DNA from: a virus
DNA: 64,000 bases
Direction: 5' to 3' (one strand)
IMG/VR virus record: IMGVR_UViG_3300032296_003307
Span: 204,740 to 268,739 of that record
Both the position numbers and the translations under genes were made by a program. The notes under the pieces are model-generated. The model was not told the DNA's origin. It saw nothing but the letters and a program-made list of their open reading frames with translations, and searched no databases. This document shows positions 3,416 through 29,312 of the stretch, piece after piece; position 1 is the stretch's first letter, and the number at the start of each line of letters is the position of its first letter.

Positions 3416-3487
3416 GGCCCCTTCGTCTATCGGCTAGGACATATCCCTTTCACGGATAAAAGACGGGTTCGATTCCCGTAGGGGCTA
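3416..3487 (+). tRNA. tRNA-Glu (TTC)
   Basis: Acceptor GGCCCCT/AGGGGCT (first pair G-U), anticodon stem TATCC/GGATA around loop CTTTCAC with anticodon TTC, T-arm GGGTTCGATTCCC, discriminator A. CCA is not encoded. First tRNA of the array. Confidence 0.9.
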
Positions 3488-3493
3488 CAAAAC

Positions 3494-3628
3494 ATCTCCG
3501 TAACTGTTAAAACGGTGAGTGGGTAAATGATGGTTGATTGGTCTGACACTACTTATACTAGTTTGTAGAGAAAAGTCAGAGCACTAAACAAGTAATTTAC
3601 AAGATGGGTTCGATTCCCATCGGAGATT
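3494..3628 (+). ncRNA. tRNA-like RNA with enlarged central domain
   Basis: A 7-bp acceptor-like helix (ATCTCCG / CGGAGAT) and a canonical T-arm (ATGGG TTCGATT CCCAT, 3604-3620) sit in their normal positions. A reduced D-like hairpin ACTG/CGGT follows the acceptor. The anticodon arm is replaced by a ~75-nt domain with helices GTAAAT/ATTTAC and TCTGAC/GTCAGA enclosing CTAC/GTAG. This is the plan of a very small tmRNA-like molecule, but no tag reading frame is evident and it lacks the G3-U70 alanine signal. A tRNA with an intron is an alternative. Confidence 0.5.
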
Positions 3629-3634
3629 CAAAAT

Positions 3635-3708
3635 GCCACCATAGCTTTAATTGGTAGAGCACCTGACTTGTAATCAGGGGGTTGGCGGTTCGAATCCGTC
3701 TGGTGGCT
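3635..3708 (+). tRNA. tRNA-Thr (TGT)
   Basis: Acceptor GCCACCA/TGGTGGC, anticodon stem CCTGA/TCAGG with loop CTTGTAA (anticodon TGT), T-arm GGCGGTTCGAATCCGTC, discriminator T. Confidence 0.9.
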
Positions 3709-3713
3709 CAAAC

Positions 3714-3755
3714 TCAAGGAGTAATTAACCTTGAACTGTCAGGTTCGAAACTGAC
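3714..3755 (+). ncRNA. Partial tRNA-like element: hairpin plus T-arm
   Basis: Hairpin TCAAGG/CCTTGA (3714-3734) is followed by a T-arm-like hairpin GTCAG-GTTCGAAA-CTGAC (3738-3755). No acceptor partner was found nearby, so this looks like a tRNA 3' half or remnant. Confidence 0.35.
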
Positions 3756-3757
3756 GA

Positions 3758-3849
3758 TTGATTATGGTGTAATAGGGCACACTGGCCTTAGTTGCTTCTT
3801 AACAGAAGTGGACGGGGCTGGGGATTGGGTTCGATTCCCTTTAATCAGC
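3758..3849 (+). ncRNA. Aberrant tRNA-like RNA (~92 nt)
   Basis: Acceptor-like TTGATTA/TAATCAG, D-arm GTGT-AATAGGGC-ACAC with the usual GG, and a T-loop TTCGATT with only three good T-stem pairs. The central part holds a hairpin GCTTC/GAAGT but no clean seven-base anticodon loop. It could be a degenerate class II tRNA or a diverged tRNA-like RNA. Confidence 0.35.
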
Positions 3850-4386
3850 AAATGACCCCACAATTAACAGTAGTACTCGACTGTTATGGTGTGTGAACCC
3901 GACTTGAAGTCTTCGGGGCTATGGGGGATAGATACACTTGACGTGAAATTTGTATAACCTCTTATAAACGGGGTTAACCGACATGGGGAAGTTCAGTCGG
4001 GTACATCGGGAACAAGTATGACTGAGTCCCCCATTATGGATTAAGGGGGTTAGGGGCTTTAATTAGTCGTAATACAATCCACAAGTTGTAGAAACACTGG
4101 ACAATTCTACAATATACACTCTTCTTCCGAGTGAGACCAGACACGTAACTATGTGGTAGGGTGAAGATGTCCTGAGGGTAATATCGTTGTTAATTGTAAG
4201 GCTTATGGTCCGAAAGGATAAGTTGAAACCCAAAGGCACAACGGTATGATAGTACAGACCTACCTTGGATGGTTACTATGTTCTGACGAATCTTGGAAAT
4301 ATAGGTAGGGATATTAATTCGCCAACTATTAAAACTTAAAGGTGTTCCTATAATGGCGTAGGGATGATTCAACACCTTTTTTACAT
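3850..4386 (+). ncRNA. Structured non-coding stretch of unknown type
   Basis: No convincing protein gene. It contains a series of perfect helices: AACAGT/ACTGTT; a 114-nt domain closed by ATGGGGGA (3921-3928)/TCCCCCAT (4027-4034); TGGATT (4037-4042)/AATCCA; TTGTAGAA (4086-4093)/TTCTACAA; a seven-base-loop hairpin CACTC-TTCTTCC-GAGTG (4117-4133); a GAAA-capped hairpin CTTAT...ATAAG (4202-4222); CCTACCT (4259-4265)/AGGTAGG; and a final AAAGGTGTT/AACACCTTT hairpin with a T run (4338-4382). It does not match RNase P RNA, 6S RNA or group I intron signatures that I could look for. Confidence 0.45.
4338..4382 (+). terminator. Terminator-like hairpin
   Basis: AAAGGTGTT (4338-4346) pairs with AACACCTTT (4371-4379), followed by TTT. 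The loop is long and holds an inner CCTA/TAGG helix. It may end the structured RNA, or act as a processing site since tRNAs follow directly. Confidence 0.4.
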
Positions 4387-4461
4387 CGCGGGATGGACTG
4401 GAGATGGTACCAGCTGAGTCTCATAAGCTCAATCACGGGGGTTCGAATCCCTCTCCCGCTA
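4387..4461 (+). tRNA. tRNA-Met (CAT), initiator-like acceptor
   Basis: Anticodon loop CTCATAA in stem TGAGT/GCTCA, D-arm CTGG/CCAG, T-arm GGGGG TTCGAAT CCCTC. Best acceptor pairing leaves C1 opposite U72 with A73, a first-pair mismatch like initiator tRNA, and CCA is encoded just after. The anticodon stem lacks the three G-C pairs of initiators, so identity (fMet, Met or Ile-CAU) is open. Confidence 0.75.
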
Positions 4462-4468
4462 CCAAATC

Positions 4469-4537
4469 GTGGATTGGTGTAATGGTAACATATTGGGCTC
4501 ATAACCCAAAGTTCCGAGTTCGAGTCTCGGGTCCGCA
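4469..4537 (+). tRNA. tRNA-Met (CAT) with GGG:CCC anticodon stem
   Basis: Acceptor GTGGATT/GGTCCGC (several G-U pairs), anticodon stem TTGGG/CCCAA with loop CTCATAA, T-arm CCGAG TTCGAGT CTCGG, discriminator A. The three G-C pairs next to the anticodon loop are an initiator trait, although the first acceptor pair is normal. Could also be a CAU tRNA read as Ile. Confidence 0.75.
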
Positions 4538-4544
4538 ACTAAAT

Positions 4545-4580
4545 GCCGGAGGACTCCCATGATAGTCCCATGGGTCCGGC
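4545..4580 (+). ncRNA. Compact 36-nt hairpin element between tRNAs
   Basis: Closing helix GCCGGA/TCCGGC. Inside, GGACT/AGTCC and CCCATG/CATGGG are both perfect but mutually exclusive, so two alternative hairpins are possible. Every base except AT takes part in one of them. Confidence 0.4.
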
Positions 4581-4585
4581 TCCAT

Positions 4586-4657
4586 GCGGGTGTCGTATAA
4601 AGGCTATTACTTCAGCCTTCCAAGCTGAAGATGGGAGTTCGATTCTCCCCACCCGCT
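4586..4657 (+). tRNA. tRNA-Gly (TCC)
   Basis: Acceptor GCGGGTG/CACCCGC, anticodon stem TCAGC/GCTGA with loop CTTCCAA (anticodon TCC), T-arm GGGAGTTCGATTCTCCC, discriminator T. Confidence 0.9.
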
Positions 4658-4662
4658 CAAAA

Positions 4663-4735
4663 GCGAGAGTGGCTCAGTTGGTAGAGCATGACCTTGCCAA
4701 GGTCAGGGTCGCCAGTTCGAACCTGGTCTCTCGCT
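4663..4735 (+). tRNA. tRNA-Gly (GCC)
   Basis: Acceptor GCGAGAG/CTCTCGC, anticodon stem TGACC/GGTCA with loop TTGCCAA (anticodon GCC), T-arm CCAGTTCGAACCTGG, discriminator T. Five bases separate it from the preceding Gly tRNA. Confidence 0.9.
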
Positions 4736-4739
4736 CGAA

Positions 4740-4799
4740 TGTGAATCTTAAAAAGGGCACTTCCGTCTCGTTGAGCGGCACGCTGAGCCCGGATTCACA
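4740..4799 (+). ncRNA. 60-nt structured RNA between tRNAs
   Basis: Perfect 8-bp closing helix TGTGAATC/GATTCACA, an inner GGGC (4755-4758)/GCCC (4787-4790) helix and an apical AGCG-GCA-CGCT hairpin. No T-loop, so not a tRNA. Confidence 0.5.
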
Positions 4800-4805
4800 T
4801 ATCAC

Positions 4806-4877
4806 GGTCTCATAGTTAATCGGCTATAATATCGCCCTGTCACGGCGAAGTGCCGGGTTCGATTCCCGGTGGGACCG
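4806..4877 (+). tRNA. tRNA-Asp (GTC)
   Basis: Acceptor GGTCTCA/TGGGACC with the G73 discriminator expected for Asp, anticodon stem TCGCC/GGCGA with loop CTGTCAC (anticodon GTC), T-arm GCCGGGTTCGATTCCCGGT. Confidence 0.9.
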
Positions 4878-4881
4878 CAAA

Positions 4882-4920
4882 ATTCAGTCAGGGTCGAGCC
4901 ACGTTGTGCCACGACTGAAT
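4882..4920 (+). ncRNA. 39-nt hairpin RNA element
   Basis: Perfect 8-bp closing helix ATTCAGTC/GACTGAAT around a 23-nt interior that can form CAC-GTT-GTG. Lies directly after tRNA-Asp. Confidence 0.4.
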
Positions 4921-4924
4921 GATA

Positions 4925-4964
4925 GGTAAGGAAGGACAAGAGGTGGCCGTGACTACTCCTTACC
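4925..4964 (+). ncRNA. 40-nt hairpin RNA element
   Basis: Perfect 8-bp closing helix GGTAAGGA/TCCTTACC around a 24-nt interior containing GGCC. Directly follows the previous hairpin element. Confidence 0.4.
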
Positions 4965-4974
4965 GTTAATTTAT

Positions 4975-4982
4975 GTATTTAT
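4975..4982 (+). promoter_or_regulatory. Candidate late promoter octamer (GTATTTAT)
   Basis: GTATTTAT ends 4 nt before the ATG of a 28-residue frame inside the tRNA array. Confidence 0.45.
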
Positions 4983-4986
4983 TGGT

Positions 4987-5073
4987 ATGTTTAAACGACT
5001 ACTAAAATACTTGGAATCAATAGAACAACACAGAATGAACGCCATTATTTTTGGTGGAAAAGGGTTGTTGTAG
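4987..5073 (+). CDS. Very small basic protein (28 aa)
   Basis: Frame ATG to TAG with product beginning MFKRLLKYLESIEQHR, an amphipathic helix with basic residues, and ending GGKGLL. Too short for family assignment. The NTATTTAT motif at the preferred 4-nt spacing is the main reason to believe it. It lies between a hairpin RNA and tRNA-Ala, so a late transcript would also read into the tRNAs. Confidence 0.4.
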   Translation: MFKRLLKYLESIEQHRMNAIIFGGKGLL

Positions 5074-5075
5074 TT

Positions 5076-5149
5076 GGGCTGTTAGCTCAGATGGCTAGAG
5101 CACCTGCCTTGCACGCAGGGGGTCGAGAGTTCGAGTCTCTCACGGTCCA
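5076..5149 (+). tRNA. tRNA-Ala (TGC)
   Basis: Acceptor GGGCTGT/ACGGTCC, where the third pair is the G3-U70 alanine signal. Anticodon stem CCTGC/GCAGG with loop CTTGCAC (anticodon TGC), T-arm GAGAGTTCGAGTCTCTC, discriminator A. Confidence 0.9.
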
Positions 5150-5152
5150 CAA

Positions 5153-5228
5153 GATGAGTTTCCCTACACCTTTGGGTTAGTAACTAGTTAAAGGGGGACA
5201 AAAGTGGTATACAAGTCCACGACTCATC
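5153..5228 (+). ncRNA. 76-nt tRNA-sized RNA lacking tRNA consensus
   Basis: Closing 7-bp helix GATGAGT/ACTCATC, a hairpin CCC-TACACCTTT-GGG in the D-arm position and GTGG-TATACAAGT-CCAC in the T-arm position, but no TTCGA T-loop and no clear anticodon arm. Its size and helix order mimic a cloverleaf. It may be a tRNA-derived RNA. Confidence 0.4.
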
Positions 5229-5233
5229 CACTT

Positions 5234-5310
5234 CGGGATGTTGGGGAGCCCGGTCACCCCGCCTGCTTTGGGAGCAGGAGAACTCGCAGGTTCGAATCCT
5301 GCCATCCCGA
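5234..5310 (+). tRNA. tRNA-Pro (TGG)
   Basis: Acceptor CGGGATG/CATCCCG with the C1-G72 pair typical of Pro, anticodon stem CCTGC/GCAGG with loop TTTGGGA (anticodon TGG), T-arm GCAGGTTCGAATCCTGC, discriminator A. Last tRNA of the main array. Confidence 0.9.
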
Positions 5311-5342
5311 CAAAATTTTTTCAATATGTCAAAAACTTTTCT

Positions 5343-5350
5343 TATCTTTG
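5343..5350 (+). promoter_or_regulatory. Bacteroidota-type promoter -7 element (TATCTTTG)
   Basis: TATCTTTG, with the ATG of the lipoprotein gene 4 nt after its last base, implies a leaderless or near-leaderless mRNA. Confidence 0.6.
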
Positions 5351-5354
5351 TAAT

Positions 5355-5663
5355 ATGAAACAAAAAATTAATAAACTCGGTGCTTTGGTATCTGTAATGA
5401 TATGGTTTGTTCTTATAACCATCTTAGGTATCTTTTTGACTTCTTGTGGTAAGCCAAAGAACAGGATTGAAAAAGGTGATATTGTTCAGAAGTGTCAGAT
5501 TGATTCTATTAATGTTTTACCACAGCATTCAACAATCGAACCTGACAGGAAGTGTGAATATTTTACAAGTTGTGGAAGTAGAATTGTGTCACATGAAGGC
5601 GCTTTCAGGGTTGGTGATACTGTGACTTACGTATATAAGAAATCTAATAGTCAGAAAAACTGA
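5355..5663 (+). CDS. Small lipoprotein
   Basis: 102 residues from the ATG that follows the TATCTTTG promoter. A longer upstream frame exists but runs through tRNA-Pro and is not the start. The N-terminus has basic residues, a long hydrophobic segment (VSVMIWFVLITILGIF) and the lipobox LTSC, so it should be lipid-anchored after signal peptidase II cleavage. The mature part is about 70 residues with four Cys. Phage lipoproteins often modify the envelope or block superinfection, but nothing here proves that. The 3' end overlaps the convergent gene by 20 bp. Confidence 0.7.
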   Translation: MKQKINKLGALVSVMIWFVLITILGIFLTSCGKPKNRIEKGDIVQKCQIDSINVLPQHSTIEPDRKCEYFTSCGSRIVSHEGAFRVGDTVTYVYKKSNSQKN

Positions 5664-6300
5664 TTAACTTTTTTATACGGTTCATAGATTCTGTCATACC
5701 GTCTTGGTAATCATATTTTCCAACATAAACGTCAGGATATTGTACGGTAATTGGATATTTTTTGCCGATTCTTTCCATAATATCATCCTGAATCGCTTCA
5801 GGACTATTCTCACTTAAATCGTCAAGTTCTGATTGAAACATACTTACTTTTTCTTCAAATTCAAAATCACCAAATTCTAAATTTGGGTAATATTTTTCAA
5901 CCACTTCATCCATTTTATTTGTATTTAAATCTCCAATAGTAACTACCGTTCCGTCGGCCATTTTTACAGTGCTGTTTGGATAAATTAAAACAGAATCTAA
6001 TTCTAAATCGTACGAAATTAAAATAGATGAAGTACGTATTGGTTCAATAGCATAATTCGTAACTTTATAAATTAATTTGGCGTAAGGGGTTTCTACAATT
6101 CCGGGGTTTTCAATTACCTCAGAAATAAGTTTAAAATAGTTTTTTTCACCACCGTAATATTCAACAATATAAGGTAAAAAATCTTCCAAGCCCCAACTTT
6201 CTTTCCCTATAAATCTTGAAACTTGATTTAAATTATATACATCAACACCTCTGGCATCCCAAAGTTTAAATAGTACTTTTTTTTCTTGGTCTGTTAACAT
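5644..6300 (-). CDS. Hypothetical protein with C-terminal RIKKLISFSDY tag
   Basis: 218 residues, paralogous to the next upstream gene (6302-7084): both begin with a helix (LTDQEKKVLFKLW versus LTPNQKKILSIIW), share a YYGG motif and end in nearly the same tag, RIK(K/N)LISFSDY. The body is acidic and mixed alpha/beta. Its start follows the upstream stop after 1 bp, so the pair is one transcript. The shared C-terminal tag fits a targeting role. Function unknown. Confidence 0.65.
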   Translation of the reverse strand: MLTDQEKKVLFKLWDARGVDVYNLNQVSRFIGKESWGLEDFLPYIVEYYGGEKNYFKLISEVIENPGIVETPYAKLIYKVTNYAIEPIRTSSILISYDLELDSVLIYPNSTVKMADGTVVTIGDLNTNKMDEVVEKYYPNLEFGDFEFEEKVSMFQSELDDLSENSPEAIQDDIMERIGKKYPITVQYPDVYVGKYDYQDGMTESMNRIKKLISFSDY

Positions 6301-6301
6301 A

Positions 6302-7084
6302 TTAATAATCTGAAAAAGATATTAAATTTTTTATTCTAATTACTGACTCGTTCAGATTTCCCAAATCAAAATCAACAATTTCAACTTTTGGTATATTTGG
6401 TTTTGGTGTAGGTGATGTTTGAACAAAAAATTTTTCTCGGGCAATTTTATTTAAGTAATCACTGGCGTTTTCTTTAATAGTTTCAATTAGTTCCTTAAAA
6501 TCTCCGTATATTTCTTTTTGATATTGTATATATTCTTCGCTACCAACTTCAATTTGAGGTAAATATTTTTCCATAAGTTGTTTGATTCCTAAATTTTTGA
6601 TTTCCAAAACAGGAATATATGTTGTTTCCCTGTTAAGGGTTGTGAACTTAAGAGTTGAACTTGGATGTAAATAAATTTTTTTCAAATACATTTTTGTGTT
6701 TTTAGGAACGCCATTATCATAGTAGGTTTGTACTAATTGTATGTCACCTAATTTTAAAAAAATGGTACCCATTGGGTTAATTAACGAACGGTCTTTTTTT
6801 GTTTCCTTTTTATAGACACCAAACTCCTGTAATATTTTTTCTTTGTATTTTTCTAATCCGCCGTAGTAATCAAAAAATAAATCGGTATAATATTCAGGTT
6901 GTAATTTATCTTTTGTGTAATAACCCACAAAACGTAAATCGCTTTCTAACCTATTTGGGTCAAAACCTTTTTTATTCCAAATAATGGATAGGATTTTTTT
7001 CTGATTTGGTGTTAATCTAGGTTCTCTTAAACCAAAAATTTTTTTTAGGTCAAATTCGTTAATTAGAGAAATTTTATTACCCAT
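6302..7084 (-). CDS. Hypothetical protein, paralogue of the neighbour, with C-terminal tag
   Basis: 260 residues with the same architecture as the 5644-6300 product but with about 20 extra N-terminal residues (MGNKISLINEFDLKKIFGLREP). That leader contains I-N-E. The C-terminus is SVIRIKNLISFSDY. An ATATTTAT motif lies 6 nt before ATG, so it is probably a late gene. Either or both proteins may be internal virion components. No family recognised. Confidence 0.65.
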   Translation of the reverse strand: MGNKISLINEFDLKKIFGLREPRLTPNQKKILSIIWNKKGFDPNRLESDLRFVGYYTKDKLQPEYYTDLFFDYYGGLEKYKEKILQEFGVYKKETKKDRSLINPMGTIFLKLGDIQLVQTYYDNGVPKNTKMYLKKIYLHPSSTLKFTTLNRETTYIPVLEIKNLGIKQLMEKYLPQIEVGSEEYIQYQKEIYGDFKELIETIKENASDYLNKIAREKFFVQTSPTPKPNIPKVEIVDFDLGNLNESVIRIKNLISFSDY

Positions 7085-7090
7085 GATTTT

Positions 7091-7098
7091 ATAAATAT
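7091..7098 (-). promoter_or_regulatory. Candidate late promoter octamer (ATATTTAT)
   Basis: ATATTTAT on the minus strand, 6 nt before the ATG at 7084. Confidence 0.55.
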
Positions 7099-7121
7099 TT
7101 GTTTTTTTAATTAAACTGATA

Positions 7122-7129
7122 TATATTTG
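7122..7129 (+). promoter_or_regulatory. Bacteroidota-type promoter -7 element (TATATTTG)
   Basis: TATATTTG, 20 nt before the ATG of a 42-residue gene. It drives a short operon that continues into two tRNAs. Confidence 0.55.
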
Positions 7130-7149
7130 TAAGGTAATGTAATAAAGAT

Positions 7150-7278
7150 ATGGGAAAGTTCAGTTATGATGACTTTAACGAGGAAGAACAACCACGTAAA
7201 GGGTCAAGAAACGACAAAAAAGAGAGCAAGAAACCTAAACTTACAGACAAAACAAAAAAACCTAAAAAACCGAAATAA
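7150..7278 (+). CDS. Small lysine-rich protein (42 aa)
   Basis: Begins MGKFSYDDFNEEEQPRKG and ends in a Lys/Pro-rich tail (KTKKPKKPK). The acidic head and strongly basic tail suggest a nucleic-acid or ribosome contact, but this is only composition. It lies 20 nt behind a TAnnTTTG promoter and 2 bp before the next gene. Confidence 0.5.
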   Translation: MGKFSYDDFNEEEQPRKGSRNDKKESKKPKLTDKTKKPKKPK

Positions 7279-7280
7279 CA

Positions 7281-7481
7281 ATGTCAAACAAAGAAAAAAA
7301 ACCAATTAATGCGGAAAATCTACAGAAGATTTCAAACGGAAATGAAATCCACATTAATATTGGAAAAAAATTCTTTGATATGGGTGATGTTGAGGTCATA
7401 GAAATACAAAGACCCAAAGAACCCGTCTACGGTGAAGATGAGTGGGATAATATACACGGAGATATAGTACACTTCACCTAA
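7281..7481 (+). CDS. Small hypothetical protein (66 aa)
   Basis: Begins MSNKEKKPINAENLQK; mixed charge, no membrane segment. Second gene of an early operon that continues, 7 bp after its stop, into tRNA-Ile and tRNA-Met. Function unknown. Confidence 0.55.
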   Translation: MSNKEKKPINAENLQKISNGNEIHINIGKKFFDMGDVEVIEIQRPKEPVYGEDEWDNIHGDIVHFT

Positions 7482-7488
7482 TCAATAT

Positions 7489-7562
7489 AGACGGGTGGCG
7501 CAATAGGTTAGCGCAGGATTCTTATACAATCAAGGTTACGGGTTCAAGTCCCGTCTCGTCTA
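7489..7562 (+). tRNA. tRNA-Ile (TAT)
   Basis: Acceptor AGACGGG/CTCGTCT, anticodon loop CTTATAC (anticodon TAT, reads AUA) in a four-pair stem GATT/AATC, T-arm ACGGGTTCAAGTCCCGT, discriminator A. A TAT anticodon is uncommon, since most bacteria read AUA with a lysidine-modified CAT tRNA. Confidence 0.8.
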
Positions 7563-7566
7563 CTTC

Positions 7567-7640
7567 GGGCCTTTAGCTCAGTCGGTCAGAGCAGGACACT
7601 CATAATGTCAAGGTCGTAGGTTCGAACCCTACAAGGCCCA
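7567..7640 (+). tRNA. tRNA-Met (CAT), third CAT tRNA
   Basis: Acceptor GGGCCTT/AAGGCCC, anticodon loop CTCATAA in stem GACA/TGTC, T-arm GTAGGTTCGAACCCTAC, discriminator A. Could be elongator Met or Ile-CAU. Confidence 0.85.
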
Positions 7641-7678
7641 CAAATTATAATTTTATTCCTTTTTTTATTGAGTTATCC

Positions 7679-11993: not shown

Positions 11994-12863
11994 ATGGAAA
12001 GATTACAATTATTAAAAGACGTTCTGTCTGTACGCACTTGCACATATCAAGAAGATTATTTGGTTGAGTTTTTGAGAAATTACTTAACAGAAAAAAATTA
12101 TGATTTTTTCATTGATGAGTTCAAAAACGTATATGTCACAAAAACTTCACCTGAGTTTGAAGGTCAACATTTTCCTTGTGTGGTTGCTCATACCGACACC
12201 GTACATTGGGGAATGAAATCAATTAATATCAAAGAAGAGATTAAATTGGATTACCAAAAAAGGGAAAAATTGTCATTAAAAGCATACGATGACGAAGGCA
12301 ATCCATCAGGTATTGGTGGCGATGATAAAGCCGGTGTATTTGGATGTTTGAGTTGTTTGGAGGATTTACCACATATCAAAGTTGCGTTGTTTGTTTCAGA
12401 AGAAACAGGTTGTCACGGTTCAAAAATGGCTAATTCTGAATTTTTTTCTGATGTTGCCTACGCCATCCAATTTGACGGACCTGAAAATTATATGATTACC
12501 GAAGTTTGTTCAGGTATCAGATTGTTTGACCGTAATAGTTACTTCTTTGATGTTATTGATGGTGTTTTTACCGAAAAAATGGAATATCACCAATACATGA
12601 TTCACCCATACACAGATGTGTCAATGCTCAAAATGAAATTTGACTTCGCATGTGTGAATATATCAATTGGGTATTACAACTACCACACCGCTCATGAATA
12701 CGTTGTTTTGGACGACGTAGAACGTGGTATTGATGTTTGTAAAACAATCATTGAAAGGTTGGGTTACGAAAAACAACTTTACGAATACAAAAAACCAACT
12801 TACAATCGCCATTTCTACGTAAAAGACGAAGATGAAGATTTTGTTCAAAGGTATTTGTTCTAA
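11994..12863 (+). CDS. M20/M28-type metallopeptidase
   Basis: 289 residues. Metal-site blocks of di-zinc aminopeptidases appear in order: AHTDTVH (His66, Asp68), GIGGDDKAG (Asp110/111), SEETGCHGS (Glu136/137), and a late HTAHEY (His near residue 234) as the last ligand. The layout resembles tripeptidase T/M20 enzymes but is shorter, so the dimerisation domain is reduced. It probably trims peptides in the cytoplasm. It has its own host-type promoter rather than the late octamer, so it is likely early. A phage-borne peptidase of this type is unusual; possible roles are peptide recycling or removal of a defence peptide. Confidence 0.75.
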   Translation: MERLQLLKDVLSVRTCTYQEDYLVEFLRNYLTEKNYDFFIDEFKNVYVTKTSPEFEGQHFPCVVAHTDTVHWGMKSINIKEEIKLDYQKREKLSLKAYDDEGNPSGIGGDDKAGVFGCLSCLEDLPHIKVALFVSEETGCHGSKMANSEFFSDVAYAIQFDGPENYMITEVCSGIRLFDRNSYFFDVIDGVFTEKMEYHQYMIHPYTDVSMLKMKFDFACVNISIGYYNYHTAHEYVVLDDVERGIDVCKTIIERLGYEKQLYEYKKPTYNRHFYVKDEDEDFVQRYLF

Positions 12864-12891: not shown

Positions 12892-14298
12892 ATGCCAAGA
12901 TTTATTCTAACAGAACAAGAAAGAAAAAGGATTCTTGAATTATATCTAAATGAACAAGTGGCTCAAATACCATACCCAACTGGTGTTACTAAAGCCGCGG
13001 TAGACAAAATACTATCTATTTCGGCACAAAATAAAAAAGGTTTAAGAGGTTCTTATTTGGCTCCTTTACAACAACAAGAAATAGACAAAGAATTTGGTAA
13101 AGATACTTTTAAGAAATTTTTTGATGGTGGCGGTAGAGACGTTTTAGACGGAAAAAAAACATTCAAAGATAGTTCTATACCGGAAATTTTAAATTGTGTA
13201 AGATTTGATGAAAAAGATGGAGACACAATGGGAACCTATACTAACGGTAAAAAATATGTTAGAGTTTTTAATCCAAACAGTATTCAAGTTTTTTGGGAGA
13301 CAGGGGCTTTTCAACAATTTGTACGTAAATCGGATAACTCTGCAGGTTCATTAACTAAAAGTGGTACATACGCATGTAACGCACAAAAGAACGATGTGGT
13401 AATTAGCGCCACCGATACAGGTGCAAATACCGGTTCAGTAAATCTTGATTGTGTAAGATTTGATGAAAAAGATGGAGACACAATGGGAACCTATACTAAC
13501 GGTAAAAAATATGTTAGAGTTTTTAATCCAAACAGTATTCAAGTTTTTTGGGAGACAGGAGAATTTCAACAATTTGTGCGTAAAGCAGACAACTCCGCAG
13601 GTCCATTAACTAAAAGCGGAAAATGGTCTTGTAACGCAACAAAAGATAACGTTGTAATAGACACCAACCAAACCGGTTCTACATCAAACAAGACTGAGTG
13701 GATGACATATTTAACTGACTCAGTTTTTAATGGTAAATCAAAACAATATCTAAAATATAAAGACCAAGACTCTGTTTATTTCCCTGATTCTAAAACATAT
13801 TATACTGAGAAAGAATGGTTTACCGTTGATGATTCAGGAAATGTGACAAAATCAGGATATTGGTTCCAAGACAAAAATAAACCTCAAAACAGCCAGTTTA
13901 CGCAAGGTGAAGGTAAAAATCCAAATGAAAAAACTGTTACAGTTGCACCTCCTTTAGAAAATGTTGCAAAAGGAACCGCAAGTATGAAACAGGGTAACCA
14001 AGGTGATTCTGTAAAAACATTACAACAAATGTTAATAGATAAAGGATATTTAAAAATCAATAATCCAACTAATTACTTTGGTAATATGACCTACAATGCG
14101 GTTCTACAGTTCCAAAAAGACAGTCTTTTGAAAAAACAAGATGGTATCGTTGGTTATGAAACATATACTGCCTTGTATAGAGCCCCTGAAGTTCAAAAAA
14201 CACCTGATGTGAACATACAACCAAAAGGAATACAAGCTCAACCACTTTCGTCCGAAACCCCAAAGACACCTACCCAAATAACAATACCCAATAGATAA
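12892..14298 (+). CDS. Tagged protein with duplicated domain and peptidoglycan-binding domain
   Basis: 468 residues. N-terminus FILTEQERKRILELYLNEQ is a helical tag ending in L-N-E then Q. Two nearly identical ~70-residue modules begin CVRFDEKDGDTMGTY (residues about 102 and 187) and end near NDVVI/DNVVI; a third, diverged module (YLKYKDQDSVYFPDSKTYY) follows. The C-terminus has a PG_binding_1 domain (GNQGDSVKTLQQMLIDKGY ... TYNAVLQFQKD ... GIVGYETYTALY, about 365-425). The combination suggests a packaged or tail-associated cell-wall-binding protein. The late octamer supports virion use. Convergent with the ClpC-like gene 1 bp away. Confidence 0.7.
   Translation: MPRFILTEQERKRILELYLNEQVAQIPYPTGVTKAAVDKILSISAQNKKGLRGSYLAPLQQQEIDKEFGKDTFKKFFDGGGRDVLDGKKTFKDSSIPEILNCVRFDEKDGDTMGTYTNGKKYVRVFNPNSIQVFWETGAFQQFVRKSDNSAGSLTKSGTYACNAQKNDVVISATDTGANTGSVNLDCVRFDEKDGDTMGTYTNGKKYVRVFNPNSIQVFWETGEFQQFVRKADNSAGPLTKSGKWSCNATKDNVVIDTNQTGSTSNKTEWMTYLTDSVFNGKSKQYLKYKDQDSVYFPDSKTYYTEKEWFTVDDSGNVTKSGYWFQDKNKPQNSQFTQGEGKNPNEKTVTVAPPLENVAKGTASMKQGNQGDSVKTLQQMLIDKGYLKINNPTNYFGNMTYNAVLQFQKDSLLKKQDGIVGYETYTALYRAPEVQKTPDVNIQPKGIQAQPLSSETPKTPTQITIPNR
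13193..13304 (+). repeat. Direct repeat copy 1 (112 bp)
   Basis: Identical over 112 bp to 13448-13559, offset 255 bp (85 codons), inside one gene. Identity at silent positions points to a recent tandem duplication or gene conversion. Confidence 0.85.
13448..13559 (+). repeat. Direct repeat copy 2 (112 bp)
   Basis: Second copy of the 112-bp repeat at 13193-13304; the modules diverge on both sides. Confidence 0.85.
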
Positions 14299-14299
14299 G

Positions 14300-16306
14300 T
14301 TAAACTTTTTCTATCTTAATTATTTCGTCAAATTTCAAGACGTAATTTTCACCTTCAATTACATTACCAACCAAGTATTCTTCTGAAATATAATCTTCAA
14401 CTTCATCTTGAATCGCTCTTTTAATCGGTCTGGCACCGAATGTTTCGTCAAACCCGACTTTGGCAATATGTTCAATTATGGTATCGTCAAATTCAAAGTT
14501 AAGTTTTAATTCTGTTAACCTGTCTTTAAGTTTTACTATTTCCAATTTAACAATTTTTTCAATTTCGGGTTGTTTCAAAGAGTTAAAAACAATAACTTCA
14601 TCAATACGATTTAAAAATTCAGGAGAGAAATAATTTTTCATTTCTTTTTGAAGAATTTGACGCTTGTACTCTTCTTGTGTTGAAGAGCTTGATGCGGTTG
14701 AAAAACCAATCTGAGTTCCAAAATCTTGTAATTTTTTAACCCCTAAGTTTGAAGTCATAATAATCAAACAATTTTTAAAGTTGATTTTTCTACCTAAAGA
14801 ATCAGTTAAATGACCTTCATCTAACATCTGTAACAATGTGTTAAAGATTTCTTTGTTTGCCTTTTCAACTTCATCAAACAGAATTACCGAATAAGGTTTG
14901 TTCTTAACTTGTTCGGTTAACTGTCCACCTTCATCGTAACCAACATAACCAGGAGGAGCACCAATCAATTTGGAAATGGTGTGTTTTTCTTGAAACTCAG
15001 ACATATCTACACGGATAAGATTGTCTTCACTACCAAAGATTTGTTTTGCCAATTGTTTTGCCAAGTGAGTCTTACCAACACCTGTTGAACCCAAGAAAAT
15101 GAATGAACCGATAGGTTTATTTGGGTCTTTAATTCCCAACCTATTTCTGCGAATTGATTTTGCAATTTTGGTAACCGCCTCATCTTGTCCAATAACTTTG
15201 TCCATCAGAGATTTGTCTAAGGCAATTAAGTTTGTTTTATCATCAACAGATATTTTAGAAACAGGAATTTTAGTCATAGAAGAAACGACATCCAAAACAA
15301 GTTCAGGTAAAATCTCGCGTTTCTTTTCTGACATTTCTATCTCATACCTTTCCTTTTCATTTTCTAACTTACTGGCAATTTTTTTCTCTTTGTTCCGTAA
15401 TTCTGCCGCCTCTTCATATTTTTGTCTTTTCACAACATCTTTTTTCTTTTCACTTATTTCTCTGAGTTGTGCGGTAAGTTTTTCTATGATTTCAGGTACT
15501 TTGGCCTCTACTTGTGCACGAGCACCAACCTCATCCATAATGTCAAACGCTTTGTCAGGAAACTCTCTGTCGGTAATGTATCTATCAGCCAAATTAACAC
15601 AAAGCTCAAGTACTTCATCAGAATAACTTACTTTGTGATATTCTTGATACTTTGTTCTTAGATTTTTAAGAATTAATAATGTTTCTTTTTTTGATGGTGA
15701 ATCAACAACTACTTTTTGAAATCTGCGTTCTAACGCACCGTCTTTTTCAAAGTTTGTTCTGTATTCATCTAGTGTTGTTGCTCCGATACATTGAATTTCA
15801 CCACGAGCAAGGGCGGGTTTAAATATATTAGAGGCGTCCATAGAGCCCGATGCGTTACCCGCACCAACTATAGTATGAATTTCATCGATAAAAACAATAA
15901 TTTCGGGGTTTTTTGACAATTCTTCAATAATTACTTTTAATCTTTCTTCAAACTGACCACGATATTTTGTTCCAGCAACAATTGATGTCATATCCAATAG
16001 AACAATCCTCTTACTCAATAAGTTACGTGGACAATCACCATTAAAAATTTTCATGGCGAGACCTTCAACAATTGCGGTTTTACCACAACCTGGCTCTCCT
16101 ATGATTATTGGATTGTTTTTCTTTCTTCTTGAAAGAATTTGAGCAATTCGTTGTATTTCACGTTCTCTACCAATTACAGGGTCTAATCTACCTTCTGACG
16201 CCAATTTTATTAGGTCTTTTGAGAAGTTATCCAATACGGGTGTAGATGAACTGTTACGTCTACTTTGCGGTTTTACATTTTCGTTGTCGTCCATTGATTC
16301 AATCAT
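14300..16306 (-). CDS. ClpC/ClpA-like AAA+ unfoldase without Clp-N domain
   Basis: 668 residues from ATG 16306; a TTG start 5 codons earlier lies inside the promoter and a second ATG lies 4 codons later. Domain order: short tail, AAA1 with GEPGCGKT (70-77) and VFIDEIHT, a UVR-like coiled coil (YEEAAELRNKEKKI), AAA2 with GSTGVGKT, ILFDEVEK and a C-terminal D2-small domain. The AAA2 insert carries TQIGFST, matching the (L/I/V)G(F/L) ClpP-docking loop, so it may feed substrates to host ClpP. The N-domain that normally binds substrates and adaptors is absent. Divergent from a UVR-motif protein, a plausible partner. Confidence 0.88.
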   Translation of the reverse strand: MIESMDDNENVKPQSRRNSSSTPVLDNFSKDLIKLASEGRLDPVIGREREIQRIAQILSRRKKNNPIIIGEPGCGKTAIVEGLAMKIFNGDCPRNLLSKRIVLLDMTSIVAGTKYRGQFEERLKVIIEELSKNPEIIVFIDEIHTIVGAGNASGSMDASNIFKPALARGEIQCIGATTLDEYRTNFEKDGALERRFQKVVVDSPSKKETLLILKNLRTKYQEYHKVSYSDEVLELCVNLADRYITDREFPDKAFDIMDEVGARAQVEAKVPEIIEKLTAQLREISEKKKDVVKRQKYEEAAELRNKEKKIASKLENEKERYEIEMSEKKREILPELVLDVVSSMTKIPVSKISVDDKTNLIALDKSLMDKVIGQDEAVTKIAKSIRRNRLGIKDPNKPIGSFIFLGSTGVGKTHLAKQLAKQIFGSEDNLIRVDMSEFQEKHTISKLIGAPPGYVGYDEGGQLTEQVKNKPYSVILFDEVEKANKEIFNTLLQMLDEGHLTDSLGRKINFKNCLIIMTSNLGVKKLQDFGTQIGFSTASSSSTQEEYKRQILQKEMKNYFSPEFLNRIDEVIVFNSLKQPEIEKIVKLEIVKLKDRLTELKLNFEFDDTIIEHIAKVGFDETFGARPIKRAIQDEVEDYISEEYLVGNVIEGENYVLKFDEIIKIEKV

Positions 16307-16310
16307 ACCA

Positions 16311-16318
16311 CAAATATA
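16311..16318 (-). promoter_or_regulatory. Bacteroidota-type promoter -7 element (TATATTTG)
   Basis: TATATTTG on the minus strand, 4 nt before ATG 16306, the same spacing as at 5355 and 2971. Confidence 0.55.
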
Positions 16319-16344
16319 CAACTATGTTTCATATTATCAACTAT

Positions 16345-16380
16345 GACAATTTGTCTTTATTATATGACAAAATGTCATAT
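16345..16380. promoter_or_regulatory. Two palindromic operator-like sites between divergent genes
   Basis: ATATGACA-AAA-TGTCATAT (16362-16380) is a perfect 8-bp inverted repeat. GACAA-T-TTGTC (16345-16355) is a second one sharing the TGACA half-site. They lie between the ClpC-like gene and the UVR-protein gene and could bind one dimeric repressor controlling both. Confidence 0.55.
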
Positions 16381-16443
16381 TTTCTTTTTTGGTATAATTT
16401 TATATAATTGTAAGGAAAATAAAAGAAATAAAAAAATAAAAAT

Positions 16444-16902
16444 ATGTTTAACAGAAATTTTAAATTAAAAGATTGGTTAAAAGAATTTGACGACATTTAT
16501 GAGTCATTAAGTAAATCCGCTTGGGAAATTAAAAACGAAATGGGTTTAGAAGAAAACACTGAATCGGGTGAAAATGAAAACGGTAAGTGGAAAAGAACTA
16601 CCTATACCACACCTGGTAAAAATGGTATAACATACACAGTGACAACTTATCATGTTGGTTCTGATAAAACCGAAACAACTGAAAAAGAAACCGAGATTTA
16701 TATGTTGAAAAAAGAACTTGCTCAGGTAGTGGAAAAACAAGATTTTGAAAAGGCGGTAGAGTTGAGAGATAAAATTAAAAAACTTGAAACATCAAACAAA
16801 GAAATCACTAAATTAGAATCTGATTTGAAATCTGCAATTGACAAAGAAGATTTTGAAACGGCAATCAAACTACGGGACAAAATCAAAAAAATGAAATCCT
16901 AA
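16444..16902 (+). CDS. Two-UVR-motif protein, candidate adaptor for the ClpC-like unfoldase
   Basis: 152 residues: an N-terminal helical region, a beta-rich middle (GKWKRTTYTTPGKNGITYTV, about 41-60) and two tandem UVR motifs (VVEKQDFEKAVELRDKIKKL and IDKEDFETAIKLRDKIKKM). UVR motifs occur in UvrB/UvrC and in McsA, which bind partners through these helical hairpins, and in ClpC itself. The neighbouring divergent unfoldase has a UVR-like segment, so an interaction is a reasonable inference. It is a single gene with its own terminator. Confidence 0.65.
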   Translation: MFNRNFKLKDWLKEFDDIYESLSKSAWEIKNEMGLEENTESGENENGKWKRTTYTTPGKNGITYTVTTYHVGSDKTETTEKETEIYMLKKELAQVVEKQDFEKAVELRDKIKKLETSNKEITKLESDLKSAIDKEDFETAIKLRDKIKKMKS

Positions 16903-16906
16903 TTTT

Positions 16907-16935
16907 AACCCCCGACTTAGTTTCGGGGGTTTTTT
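16907..16935 (+). terminator. Rho-independent terminator
   Basis: AACCCCCGA/TCGGGGGTT hairpin with T run; the next gene's octamer begins immediately after. Confidence 0.85.
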
Positions 16936-18341: not shown

Positions 18342-19358
18342 ATGGCTTTAGTAACATATACCATAGCACCATGTGCAGGAGGGAGCACATTAGATGTTGA
18401 ATTTAGTGGCTCATCTTTACCCGTGGTCGGCGGGAATTATTATTTAACCTTTACAGGTGCGACAACTCAAGGTTGTTATGAAATTGTTGATACTTCAGAA
18501 CCAGGAACTGGTTCGGATAAAGTTGATACTATGTCAACAAATTATGGTGATTGTGCGACTTGTTTGACGGCAAATCCAACCCCAACCCCAACACCAACAG
18601 TATCCTTGACTCCATCGGTAACCAAGACACCAACCAATACCCCGACTCAAACCAAAACACAGACACAAACACCAACTAAAACACCAACCCAAACTAAAAC
18701 ACCTACAAACACTCCAACACCTACCACAACACCTTCTACTTGCTTTTCAGCAATAACCGACACTACAAATTGGTATTATACAGATTGTTGCGGTAACTTT
18801 CAAGGAGGAAATGAAATAGGTATTACTGTTTGTGTTGATAGTACTAAACCTAATTCGGGTTTGGCAATTTTGGTAGATTTTCCGTGTAGTCAATCATGCC
18901 CTACACCAACACCAACAGCTTCAGTAACTAAAACACCAACAAACACACCAACTAATACACCAACTAAAACATCAACACCAACTAATACACCAACTAAAAC
19001 TCAAACACCTACAAAAACAACAACAAACACACCAACACCTTCACAAACACAAACTAAGACACCAACTAATACACCAACACCAACCAATACACCAACTAAA
19101 ACATCAACCCCAACAATAACACCAACTAAAACCCCTACACAAACGTCAACACCTACACCCTCATTTACTCCCTTTTATTCGATTGAAACAGGTTCTGAGT
19201 ATTTTATGTGTGTAATTTGTCCCGACGAAGGATTAACAGGTTATACCTATACACCAACAACAGTTCCACATCCAGCAGCAGCAAACGCACAGGAAAACGT
19301 AACTATATACCAAAGAGGTGCAGTCGTAATTGGCGGACCTGATGGATTAAACTCATAA
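18342..19358 (+). CDS. Structural protein with two Pro/Thr-rich linkers
   Basis: 338 residues. A small N-terminal domain (about 1-80, Cys-containing, beta-type), a TPTPT/TKTPTNT linker, a second Cys-rich domain (about 128-185, WYYTDCCGNFQGG), a longer Pro/Thr linker and a short C-terminal domain (about 280-338). The linkers resemble extended, possibly O-glycosylated spacers. The same type of linker occurs in the 59664-62291 fibre protein, suggesting a surface-exposed virion decoration or fibre. Located just before the head genes. No enzymatic motif. Confidence 0.6.
   Translation: MALVTYTIAPCAGGSTLDVEFSGSSLPVVGGNYYLTFTGATTQGCYEIVDTSEPGTGSDKVDTMSTNYGDCATCLTANPTPTPTPTVSLTPSVTKTPTNTPTQTKTQTQTPTKTPTQTKTPTNTPTPTTTPSTCFSAITDTTNWYYTDCCGNFQGGNEIGITVCVDSTKPNSGLAILVDFPCSQSCPTPTPTASVTKTPTNTPTNTPTKTSTPTNTPTKTQTPTKTTTNTPTPSQTQTKTPTNTPTPTNTPTKTSTPTITPTKTPTQTSTPTPSFTPFYSIETGSEYFMCVICPDEGLTGYTYTPTTVPHPAAANAQENVTIYQRGAVVIGGPDGLNS
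18574..19170 (+). repeat. Pro/Thr codon repeats (two tracts)
   Basis: Imperfect repeats of ACNCCNACN-type codons at about 18574-18744 and 18898-19170, encoding (T-P-T-x) spacers and separated by a globular domain. Confidence 0.8.
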
Positions 19359-25306: not shown

Positions 25307-27124
25307 ATGAGCGATAATTTAACAATATGGCAAAGGCTGAGTCAGACATTTGGTCCTGATTCACTTCTTGGTCAAGATTCACCAGTATACAAATACGATA
25401 AGAAAGAATTACTTAGAACTACAGATAGAGCTCAATATGAGTTAGAAAAACTACAGGCACAACAAACTGCGTTTCTATCTAATCAATGGGCGAAGATTGA
25501 AAACAATCTGTATCAACAAGCCGTATATTACGAACCAACAAGACTTTCTGCGTTTTATGACTACGAAAGTATGGAATATACTCCTGAAATTTCTGCGGCG
25601 TTAGATGCGTACGCCGAAGAATCTACTACTGTAGATGAAGATGGTTACATGTTACAGATTTATTCCGAATCAAAAAGAATAAAATCAATATTAACCGATT
25701 TGTTTAACAATGTAATGGACATTAACACCAACTTACCTATGTGGACAAGAAACACATGTAAGTATGGTGATAATTTTGTGTTCTTAAAATTGGACCCTGA
25801 AAAAGGAATTGTGGGTTGTTTCCAACTACCTAATATTGAAATGGAGCGTATTGAGAGAGGTATGACACCACAAACAGTGGCAACCGCAGAGAACGAACAA
25901 AAAGCCCTTAAGTTTGCGTGGAAGAACAAACAAATGGAATACCAATCTTGGGAGGTTGCTCACTTCCGTTTATTGGGTGACGATAGAAGATTGCCTTACG
26001 GAACATCTATGTTGGAAAAAGGAAGAAGAACATGGAAACAGTTAGTATTGGCTGAGGACGCAATGTTAATTTACAGAACATCAAGAGCACCTGAAAGACG
26101 TGTATTCAAGGTTTACGTTGGTAACATGGATGACAAAGACGTTCAACCATATGTTCAAAAATTTGCAAACAACTTTAAAAGAGACCAAGTTACCGATTCA
26201 AAAACAGGTAACGTAGACATGAGATTTAACCAAATGGCGGTTGACCAAGATTATTTTGTACCTGTACGTGACCCTGCCGCGCCAAGTCCAATCGATACTT
26301 TACCAGGAGCGCAGAACTTGGCAGAAATTGCTGATATTGAATACATTCAGAAAAAATTATTAACCGCATTAAGAATTCCTAAAGCGTTTTTAGGTTTTGA
26401 AGAAGTTGTGGGTGACGGTAAGAATTTGTCTTTGTTAGATATTCGTTTTGCTCGTACAATTAACAGAATACAAAAATCCATGATTGCAGAACTTAATAAA
26501 ATAGCAATTATACATTTATTCTTGTTAGGGTTCGAAGATGAATTAGGTAACTTTACTTTAGGGTTGACAAACCCATCTAAACAGGCAGACTTGTTAGCGA
26601 TTGATGTTTGGAAAGAAAAAATGTTACTTTATAAAGATGCGGTAACACCAATTGAAGGTATTGCACCAACATCACAATCTTGGGCTAAAAAACATATACT
26701 TGGTTTTTCTGACGATGAGATAAAATTAGATTTACAACAACAAAGATTAGAAAAGGCAGTTTCTGCTGAACTCACAAATACCGCAACTGCAATTCCAAAA
26801 ACAGGTTTATTTGATAATGTTGACAAACTGTACGGTCAACTTAGCGGTAAAACAGGTGGAGCGGTTCCAACACCGGGAGCGGAATTAGGTGGAGCACCTC
26901 CTGATTTAGGTGGCGGAGCACCACCACCACCTCCGCCTCCACCTCCTCCTGGTGGTGAGGAACTTGCTGCGGGTGGCGGAACGTTACCCGAAGAGAAAAT
27001 GGATAAAATAAACATTCTATTGGAAGGAGACTTTTTGACCCCAAATGATTTCTTAGATTTGGGTAAAGCTAAAAATTCTCTGAATGAAATGGATGACGAA
27101 TTAAACAGAATATTAAAATCGTAA
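25307..27124 (+). CDS. Portal vertex protein (gp20-like)
   Basis: 605 residues, similar in size and order to T4 gp20: N-terminal region with TPEISAALDAYAEESTT (where portals of this class carry xxIxxAldxyadE), a wing region, RIPKAFLGFEE near 365-375 followed by SLLDIRFARTINRIQKSM (clip/stem helix), and a C-terminal Pro/Gly tail (GGGAPPPPPPPPPPGGEE). It forms the dodecameric DNA gate and nucleates head assembly. It directly follows the terminase; only a diverged ATATTTAA lies upstream, so read-through is likely. Confidence 0.92.
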   Translation: MSDNLTIWQRLSQTFGPDSLLGQDSPVYKYDKKELLRTTDRAQYELEKLQAQQTAFLSNQWAKIENNLYQQAVYYEPTRLSAFYDYESMEYTPEISAALDAYAEESTTVDEDGYMLQIYSESKRIKSILTDLFNNVMDINTNLPMWTRNTCKYGDNFVFLKLDPEKGIVGCFQLPNIEMERIERGMTPQTVATAENEQKALKFAWKNKQMEYQSWEVAHFRLLGDDRRLPYGTSMLEKGRRTWKQLVLAEDAMLIYRTSRAPERRVFKVYVGNMDDKDVQPYVQKFANNFKRDQVTDSKTGNVDMRFNQMAVDQDYFVPVRDPAAPSPIDTLPGAQNLAEIADIEYIQKKLLTALRIPKAFLGFEEVVGDGKNLSLLDIRFARTINRIQKSMIAELNKIAIIHLFLLGFEDELGNFTLGLTNPSKQADLLAIDVWKEKMLLYKDAVTPIEGIAPTSQSWAKKHILGFSDDEIKLDLQQQRLEKAVSAELTNTATAIPKTGLFDNVDKLYGQLSGKTGGAVPTPGAELGGAPPDLGGGAPPPPPPPPPPGGEELAAGGGTLPEEKMDKINILLEGDFLTPNDFLDLGKAKNSLNEMDDELNRILKS

Positions 27125-27131
27125 TATTTAT
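27124..27131 (+). promoter_or_regulatory. Candidate late promoter octamer (ATATTTAT)
   Basis: ATATTTAT starting in the portal stop codon, 4 nt before ATG 27136. Confidence 0.55.
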
Positions 27132-27135
27132 TATC

Positions 27136-27843
27136 ATGAACTTCGGAGAAAAATTTAGTAAAATAGAGTTTTTGTTGTCAGAATCTTACGTTAACAAAAA
27201 CTTAAAAAATGATATCAAAAAATTCCAAAAATTAGTTTTGGAAAATAAAAACGTTGCAAAAATGTATTTTTTGTATTCGGAGCTATCTAAACAACAAGGA
27301 TTTGATAAGAATTTTGCTGAAGATTTTATTACGGAATCTCTTTCACAAATTAAAGATTTATCATCTAAAACAAACTTCAAATCAATCAATCCTTGGATTT
27401 CTAAAGTTGTTTGTGAGAATAGATATTCTGATATAGATAATTTGATAAACAATGACCCTCTGAAATTAAAAGAAAAAATATTAGCAAAATCAAAAATAGT
27501 TGAGTCGTTGACCAAAAAATCAATTCAAAAAGAAAGTGTTAATATTCCTTTAAGTTCAGTTGAGGTTATCAGAAAAAATGTGGTAAAAAACTATATCGAT
27601 TCATTAGATGAATCCACTCAGAATAGTTTAAAAAATCTTTTATCTAAAGACGACAAAGAATTAAAAAATTTATTTGAAGATGTTAAGTCAAAAACTTTAG
27701 ATAAATTAATGGTCGTTTCTGAAGGTAACCACGACGAACTTACCAAGAACAAAATCAACGAAACTATTACGCATGTTAAGAAAGAAGAGTACAACAAATT
27801 CAACTACGTTAGATTAAAGAATCTATACGAAAATTTAGGTTGA
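27136..27843 (+). CDS. Helical head-region protein with N-terminal LSE site
   Basis: 235 residues, almost entirely helical and Lys/Ser/Asn-rich. Starts MNFGEKFSKIEFLLSESY: an amphipathic helix with L-S-E before Ser, matching the proposed tag/cleavage pattern. It lies between portal and protease, where T4 encodes the small core proteins gp67/gp68, so a prohead-core or internal-protein role is plausible but not shown by similarity. Confidence 0.6.
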   Translation: MNFGEKFSKIEFLLSESYVNKNLKNDIKKFQKLVLENKNVAKMYFLYSELSKQQGFDKNFAEDFITESLSQIKDLSSKTNFKSINPWISKVVCENRYSDIDNLINNDPLKLKEKILAKSKIVESLTKKSIQKESVNIPLSSVEVIRKNVVKNYIDSLDESTQNSLKNLLSKDDKELKNLFEDVKSKTLDKLMVVSEGNHDELTKNKINETITHVKKEEYNKFNYVRLKNLYENLG

Positions 27844-28601: not shown

Positions 28602-29312
28602 ATGAAGATTTTAGGACCAAACGATACGGGGCGTGGTATTTTGATTGAGTACGATGCGGGATACATTTCCCCAACCGAAAAACACAACCTTCATTTGATG
28701 GAGCAAATGAAGAAGGACATGTTAGATTATTCAAAACCATTTGAATTCTATGCCGTACTACAAAAATACAACACACCAAATAGAAACGGAAGAATATATC
28801 CTGAAAGGATTTTGAAAAGAGAATCGGAAAATTATAAAAAGATGATTCAAAAAGGTACCTCTTTATCAGAGTTGAACCACCCTGAATCATCTTTAATTGA
28901 TTTGGACCGTGTATCACACATTATCACTGACATTTGGTGGGATGGTATAATTTTGATGGGTAAATTAAAATTATTGACTTCGCCAGGTTTTCATGAAAGA
29001 GGTATTGTTTCAACCAAGGGAGACCAAGCGGCTAACTTACTAAGACAGGGGGTTACTTTAGGTATTTCTTCTCGTGGAGTTGGTTCGTTAAAAAAAGTAG
29101 GTGAAAGAAATGAAGTGCAAGACGATTTTGAATTAATTTGTTTTGATTTAGTATCGTCACCGTCTACACCTGGCGCGTATCTATTCTTGGACCCAAAAGA
29201 AAGAAGTAATTTTGAAGAAAATTTGGAAGAAGAAATACAAAGGAAATCGCAAGGCTCAATTGATAAATCAGTTGACTTAATGAAGAAATTAACCGATTAT
29301 TTATCAAAATAA
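28602..29312 (+). CDS. Prohead protease (gp21-like, S77 family)
   Basis: 236 residues, near the ~212 of T4 gp21. Motifs: FYAVLQKYNTPNRNGRIYP (49-67), SELNHPESS with candidate catalytic His93, VSHIITDIWWDG, GISSRGVGS with candidate catalytic Ser156/157, and ICFDLVSSPSTPGA with Asp182. After head assembly such proteases cut scaffold, capsid N-termini and internal proteins at (L/I)-x-E sites. This underlies the tag hypothesis for other genes here, and the capsid protein has a matching LINE-A site. It lies between portal and scaffold as in T4. Confidence 0.93.
   Translation: MKILGPNDTGRGILIEYDAGYISPTEKHNLHLMEQMKKDMLDYSKPFEFYAVLQKYNTPNRNGRIYPERILKRESENYKKMIQKGTSLSELNHPESSLIDLDRVSHIITDIWWDGIILMGKLKLLTSPGFHERGIVSTKGDQAANLLRQGVTLGISSRGVGSLKKVGERNEVQDDFELICFDLVSSPSTPGAYLFLDPKERSNFEENLEEEIQRKSQGSIDKSVDLMKKLTDYLSK

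Follow-up and report, generated by a model that had tools for sequence, protein, structure and literature searches.

An N-domain-less phage ClpC paired divergently with a small UVR-motif protein behind shared, phased palindromes: a candidate two-gene Clp module

We analyzed a window of 64 kb, the final part of a 268,739-bp IMG/VR virus record, in which genes for terminase, portal, head maturation protease and major head protein are present and which encodes a ClpC-like unfoldase without an N-domain and, divergently from it, a small protein with two UVR motifs. Comparison of this pair across viral loci supports a linked module rather than a chance pairing, and we read it, with confidence about evenly balanced, as a co-regulated two-gene Clp module in which the partner protein engages the N-less ClpC via its M-domain. 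The small protein is probably a switch or feeder of ClpC, since the pair is conserved in many relatives behind one control region. Control of ClpC is understood via adaptors, drugs and phosphoarginine, which act on the N-domain. The phage family described here is large and environmentally common, has discarded the N-domain and in many of its members has added a UVR protein; it offers a natural setting in which to test how ClpC stays safe and fed without this domain. The features of the pair and of the region between its genes are as follows.

14300-16306, minus strand: clpC-like gene, N-domain-less ClpC of 668 aa from the ATG at 16306
14699-14713, minus strand: IGF loop (QIGFS) of the ClpP-docking type, residues 533-535, intact
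15326-15493, minus strand: M-domain coiled coil, residues 272-327, between AAA1 and AAA2
16311-16318, minus strand: putative Bacteroidota-type -7 element, TATATTTG, just upstream of the clpC start
16344-16356, no strand: palindrome 1, TGACAATTTGTCT, one mismatch to TGACA-N3-TGTCA
16365-16377, no strand: palindrome 2, TGACAAAATGTCA, exact, 21 bp from palindrome 1
16444-16902, plus strand: UVR partner gene, 152 aa, two UVR motifs, Pfam UVR E 1.4e-16
16705-16791, plus strand: UVR motif 1, with F101, R108 and D109
16798-16896, plus strand: UVR motif 2, with F137, R144 and D145
16907-16931, plus strand: intrinsic terminator-like stem-loop (9 pairs, 6 of them G-C), directly after the partner gene

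The initial annotation had described an unfoldase with two AAA domains, a UVR-like coil and an IGF loop but no Clp-N domain, and this description was confirmed. Walker A and B are intact in both AAA domains, likewise the arginine fingers, sensor 2 and both pore loops, and the IGF loop is kept as [IV]GF across the phage ClpC family and Bacteroidota ClpC. The M-domain contains the UVR-type motif QKYEEAAELRN, and the coil itself, for whose limits alone we used a structure model of modest confidence (pLDDT 66), scores as a UVR motif. Its tip reads Y-R-N in the window phage and F436-R443-D444 in S. aureus ClpC, so that the tip Asp is replaced by Asn. The alignment with the S. aureus protein begins only at residue 152 (725 bits), and Clp_N had no match in the phage ClpC or in the whole 268,739-bp record, in a search that detected its positive controls; a Clp_N encoded elsewhere in the phage was likewise not found in the 16 records searched. 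Because Clp_N is absent, we class the gene as a ClpC-derived N-less variant and not as a full ClpC. The listed open reading frame runs from 14300 to 16321 on the minus strand with a TTG start at 16321, and we prefer the ATG at 16306 because the MIESxD sequence is conserved family-wide. The element upstream of this start, TATATTTG, matches TAnnTTTG, which we take to be the Bacteroidota-type -7 promoter consensus.

Relatives of the phage ClpC are encoded on at least 597 stretches of viral contigs. Ahead of the first Walker A there are 53-93 residues in the distinct phage proteins that we compared, and 67-93 in the main phage set, as against approximately 160-310 in the cellular ClpC/ClpB rows, and the short conserved MIESxD tail stands in place of the N-domain; this domain has been lost throughout the phage ClpC family. 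In a phylogenetic tree, 29 phage rows, including the window ClpC, cluster in one supported group next to Bacteroidota ClpC. The window protein is 57% identical to its best match among Bacteroidota ClpC proteins, compared with 47-50% for the best complete match in most other phyla sampled. Tree and identities together indicate that the phage gene is derived from a Bacteroidota-type ClpC. With the bacterial proteins (S. aureus, B. subtilis, Bacteroidota) it shares two AAA domains with all motifs, the UVR-type M-domain and the IGF loop, but not the N-domain that they possess. Like the laboratory deltaN-ClpC constructs (PMC12583610, PMC5699869), it consists of AAA1, M-domain and AAA2 and has no NTD, whereas the phage version is natural, family-wide and, in the lineage of the window, paired with a UVR protein. 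Jumbo phages, too, are known to encode Hsp100 proteins and ClpP, for example Atu_ph07 with its ClpX, ClpA, ClpB, ClpP and ClpS annotations (PMC6102473), and proteins like the phage ClpC are already annotated as PHROG 4871, 'ATP-dependent protease'. The N-less phage ClpC, taken alone, is thus not new. What looks new relative to these known phage Clp proteins is the partner with its UVR motifs, the phased operator that it shares with ClpC, and its replacement by HSP20, all described below: none of the three was found in the open-licence full texts searched, although they may have been described elsewhere.

A single-sequence search for relatives of the partner gave little, while a profile search recovered at least 248 stretches. 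The 43 family members in our alignment show 32-50% identity to the window protein. Common to them are an amphipathic stretch at the N-terminus, the segment W..ETF.S.DG and the two UVR motifs. The N-terminal half forms a separate conserved module, and no further known domain was found beyond UVR. Among the matches listed on cellular contigs (40 loci) there was no full-length homologue, and nearly all of them span the UVR part alone. A moderately confident AlphaFold model (pLDDT 70.5, pTM 0.37) shows two UVR hairpins together with an N-terminal helix and a sheet of three strands. A Foldseek search with this model gave no match at E <= 0.001, and only its UVR hairpin part is interpretable; that part matched the M-domain of S. 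aureus ClpC (probability 0.96-0.98, 39-41% identity over approximately 50 residues) and also McsA. In profile comparisons with solved structures, McsA (1.4e-6) and the ClpC M-domain (5.1e-6) both came ahead of UvrB.

McsA is the activator of the arginine kinase McsB and comes from the clpC operon of Firmicutes. The initial annotation had likened the partner to McsA, and this likeness held for the UVR motifs and not for the remainder of the protein. Like McsA, the phage partner has a UVR motif at its C-terminus and a gene linked to clpC, but it lacks the zinc-binding CxxC motifs of McsA, its UVR motifs number two, and its N-terminal module is a different one. We rejected its identification as McsA because there is no cysteine in the window protein and no CxxC in the 43 family members, and because its score of 45.9 bits, obtained over the UVR part only, lies far below the curated NCBIfam cut-off of 210 for McsA. 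A search for McsB (PF00217) gave no match, but neither did it detect any control genome.

UVR motifs also mediate contacts between UvrB and UvrC. UvrB chains were among the sequence matches of the partner, and it could therefore be argued that this protein is unrelated to ClpC, that it binds host UvrB/UvrC in DNA repair, or something else, and that it is a mere neighbor in a conserved block. The partner contains neither the helicase nor the nuclease domains of UvrB and UvrC, and, as described above, McsA and the ClpC M-domain outscore UvrB as its matches. ClpC divergently adjoins the partner in 75 of 80 loci (the best 80 of at least 248, many of them near-copies), while the remaining five begin at the edge of a contig, so that ClpC is present at all 75 assessable partner loci. 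The gap between the two genes widens to approximately 550 bp in L147-L149 and 1.5 kb in L145, and in one known exception (G019) the genes lie approximately 32 kb apart and no palindromes are found. However, the surrounding block, with its KTSC gene, nucleotidyltransferase-like gene and peptidase gene, is itself widely conserved, and adjacency alone is therefore weak evidence. For the same reason we rejected conservation of gene neighbors as sufficient proof of linkage, and our argument rests instead on the partner and the palindromes coming and going together within this block. We consider a partner unrelated to ClpC very unlikely. The gene at window positions 11994-12863 encodes an enzyme of the M20/M42 metallo-aminopeptidase type with all metal-site motifs (HTD, GGDD, EE, FDG, H). 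Of 107 distinct phage loci, 100 have such a gene close to ClpC, although the whole block is conserved.

The two palindromes between the divergent genes are the only such pair within 60 bp of each other in the 268.7-kb record. At least one palindrome was found upstream of clpC in 56 of 60 distinct partner loci, two of them in 49, and paired palindromes were seen at positions 16344-16377 of the window, in L004-L031 and L126-L205, and in L033, L082 and L083. The start-to-start spacings are 21-22 bp (12 loci), 30-32 bp (21 loci), 34 bp (one locus) and 41-43 bp (16 loci); 49 of the 50 pairs thus fall at 21-22, 30-32 or 41-43 bp, which correspond to 2, 3 or 4 helical turns. This is the pattern expected if a pair of dimers binds cooperatively to the same side of the helix, and the spacing points to a cooperative dimeric regulator, by which, we infer, both genes of the pair are co-regulated. 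In a tree of 50 phage ClpC proteins, the partner and the palindromes changed together in 3 of 3 independent contrasts, a number too small for significance of the association. The proposal of a linked pair was borne out, by the 75 of 75 assessable loci as well as by the shared phased operators.

Similar palindromes were also observed in cellular genomes. In L333, from a Bacteroidota genome (G124), TGTCAAAATGTTA and, 32 bp on, TGTCAAAATGTCA lie approximately 35 and 67 bp upstream of a cellular clpB gene, and weaker palindromes of similar kind occur upstream in L328, L330, L332, L341 and L342. Altogether, 9 sites with at most one mismatch were found in 33 cellular upstream regions, compared with 0.4 expected; these regions are not all those of clpB, and the sites come from few, related lineages. 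It is possible that the palindromes of cellular clpB represent a host heat-shock operator that the phage has tapped.

Three loci bear on the function of the divergent slot. At L033, L082 and L083, what lies divergently behind the palindromes is a gene whose product belongs to HSP20 (Pfam E 7.5e-14 to 2.5e-16), and a palindrome is present upstream of clpC in all three of these small heat-shock protein (sHSP) loci but in only 1 of 32 loci with neither gene. Because HSP20 occupies it in these phages, the slot would seem to hold a ClpC helper of the protein-quality-control type, as the gene content of these loci argues. The HSP20 alpha-crystallin domain is absent from the window partner and from its record. 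The N-terminus of the partner and that of the sHSPs are alike by eye, but we rejected a relationship between them, as the similarity was not significant against chance.

These loci argue for a serious rival to our reading, namely that the main task of ClpC is to unfold or disaggregate phage proteins, e.g. those of the virion, with the partner as a holder of substrates like the sHSP of the sister phages and with ClpP as an optional addition. The position of the block near the genes for terminase, portal and major head protein fits this chaperone role, as do the lack of a ClpP gene in the window phage and the independent distribution of the pair and ClpP across records. Against it, the IGF loop, which a pure disaggregase would not need, is kept throughout the phage family, many relatives encode a ClpP with catalytic motifs, and the partner has no HSP20 domain and an N-terminus that matches those of sHSPs no better than chance. 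On balance we regard a chaperone role without ClpP as somewhat improbable, and we return to a Clp module that would deliver its substrates to ClpP.

Eleven records with the ClpC-partner pair encode their own ClpP, as do two records without the UVR partner, and the aligned ClpP proteins keep the catalytic Ser-His-Asp motifs in an alignment with the E. coli sequence. In the window record, no ClpP was found either by Pfam or with the protein of a relative as query. In that relative (G005), clpP lies at 26748-27425, and the counterparts of its flanking genes in the window record (G000) are found at 190763-191335 and, for an HNH gene, 192253-192744; both flanking genes are retained, and an unrelated gene at 191446-192045 occupies the clpP site. 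Any proteolysis by the window phage ClpC would need host ClpP, because the record is without clpP, and proteolysis in this phage is an assumption of our reading. The earlier idea that the pair redirects host ClpP is thus incomplete: it may apply to the window phage, but the 11 relatives bring a catalytic ClpP of their own. For the further idea that host or defence proteins are the targets of degradation we found no sequence evidence, and a role in protein quality control is equally open because an sHSP fills the same slot in some relatives. ClpP is also unlikely to be the prohead protease, since there is a distinct gene for a head maturation protease at 28602-29312.

Previous studies of S. aureus ClpC suggest how an N-less motor and a UVR protein could work together. 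Deletion of the N-domain raises ATPase activity and permits ClpP binding; deltaN-ClpC with intact M-domains forms head-to-head rings and proteolytically obstructed ClpC/ClpP rods via M-M contacts, and mutation of F436 or R443 turns it into a highly active, toxic protease (PMC12583610, PMC5699869). These M-M contacts are made by an aromatic-R-D triad (PMC5699869), and the same triad is found again in both UVR motifs of the partner. The phage ClpC is the natural counterpart of the deltaN-ClpC construct, and we hypothesize that the UVR hairpins of the partner may dock on its M-domain. As a detached M-domain mimic, the partner might then compete with the M-M contacts and so release the active ring, its N-terminal helix and small sheet could bring or hold substrate, and the unfolded chain would pass to ClpP, which is phage-encoded in many relatives and would be that of the host in the window phage. 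If the partner does dissolve M-domain-locked assemblies, or restores substrate binding, it would amount to a small, genetically encoded switch of ClpC.

Conservation of the M-domain tip was compared between phages with and without the partner. The aromatic-R-D/N tip is present in 67 of 67 distinct phage ClpC M-domains with a partner and in 37 of 37 without one, i.e., the tip residues do not co-vary with the presence of the partner, and docking gains no support from co-variation because they are kept in either case. Furthermore, some sister phages with an equally N-less ClpC, represented by records of 160-322 kb, have no UVR partner, HSP20 or Clp_N, so the partner is not the sole answer to N-domain loss, and ClpC must function without it in the many sister phages that lack it. 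The suggestion that an N-less unfoldase would need the UVR protein as a new delivery route thus survives in part: the protein is the natural candidate to act on such a ClpC, but that it is a necessity is not supported.

The partner might also be a pure delivery adaptor that tethers chosen substrates to ClpC, with the UVR hairpins as a docking handle and with no effect on assembly. In plastids, the adaptor ClpF and other UVR-domain proteins were recovered or trapped with ClpC1 (PMC8889267), which is a precedent for UVR-bearing proteins that associate with a ClpC, and the N-terminal half of the phage partner, as a separate conserved module, would suit the handling of substrates. The phage partner differs from these proteins in being phage-specific and without a further known domain. 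The repeat of the M-domain contact residues in the hairpins is left unexplained by tethering alone, and we consider a pure adaptor unlikely. ClpF works with a ClpC that retains its N-domain. Our preferred reading of a partner that engages the M-domain can be extended, tentatively, to a form that we find possible but doubtful: the virus would have divided a ClpC protease between a motor that permanently lacks the N-domain and a second M-domain on a separate protein. This partner would be a dedicated trans on-switch that dismantles M-domain-locked rings, is evolutionarily interchangeable with an sHSP, and is made along with the motor under one cooperatively controlled divergent promoter.

Finally, several other features of the window and its record were observed. 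An N-terminal motif like MKKIVRLTESDLxRIVKRVIxE or MxxFIITEEEKxRIL is common to otherwise different phage proteins, at window positions 12892-12957 and at record positions 124676, 142084, 142850, 144560, 145763, 160796, 162531, 162866 and others; it was found in 11 of 299 open reading frames, compared with 0.2 in shuffled sequences, for a pattern picked after examples had been seen. By analogy with the T4 capsid targeting sequence, it could be a head-targeting propeptide. The protein encoded at 12892-14298 has an internal duplication of approximately 85 residues (LDCVRFDEKDGDTMGTYTNGKKYVRVFNPNSIQVFWETG...) and a C-terminal peptidoglycan-binding domain, and that at 18342-19358 has long Thr/Pro-rich repeats (TPTPTKTPTNTPTQT...) that are partly conserved in the relative G005. 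Twelve phage tRNA genes, three of them with a CAT anticodon, are clustered at 3416-7641.
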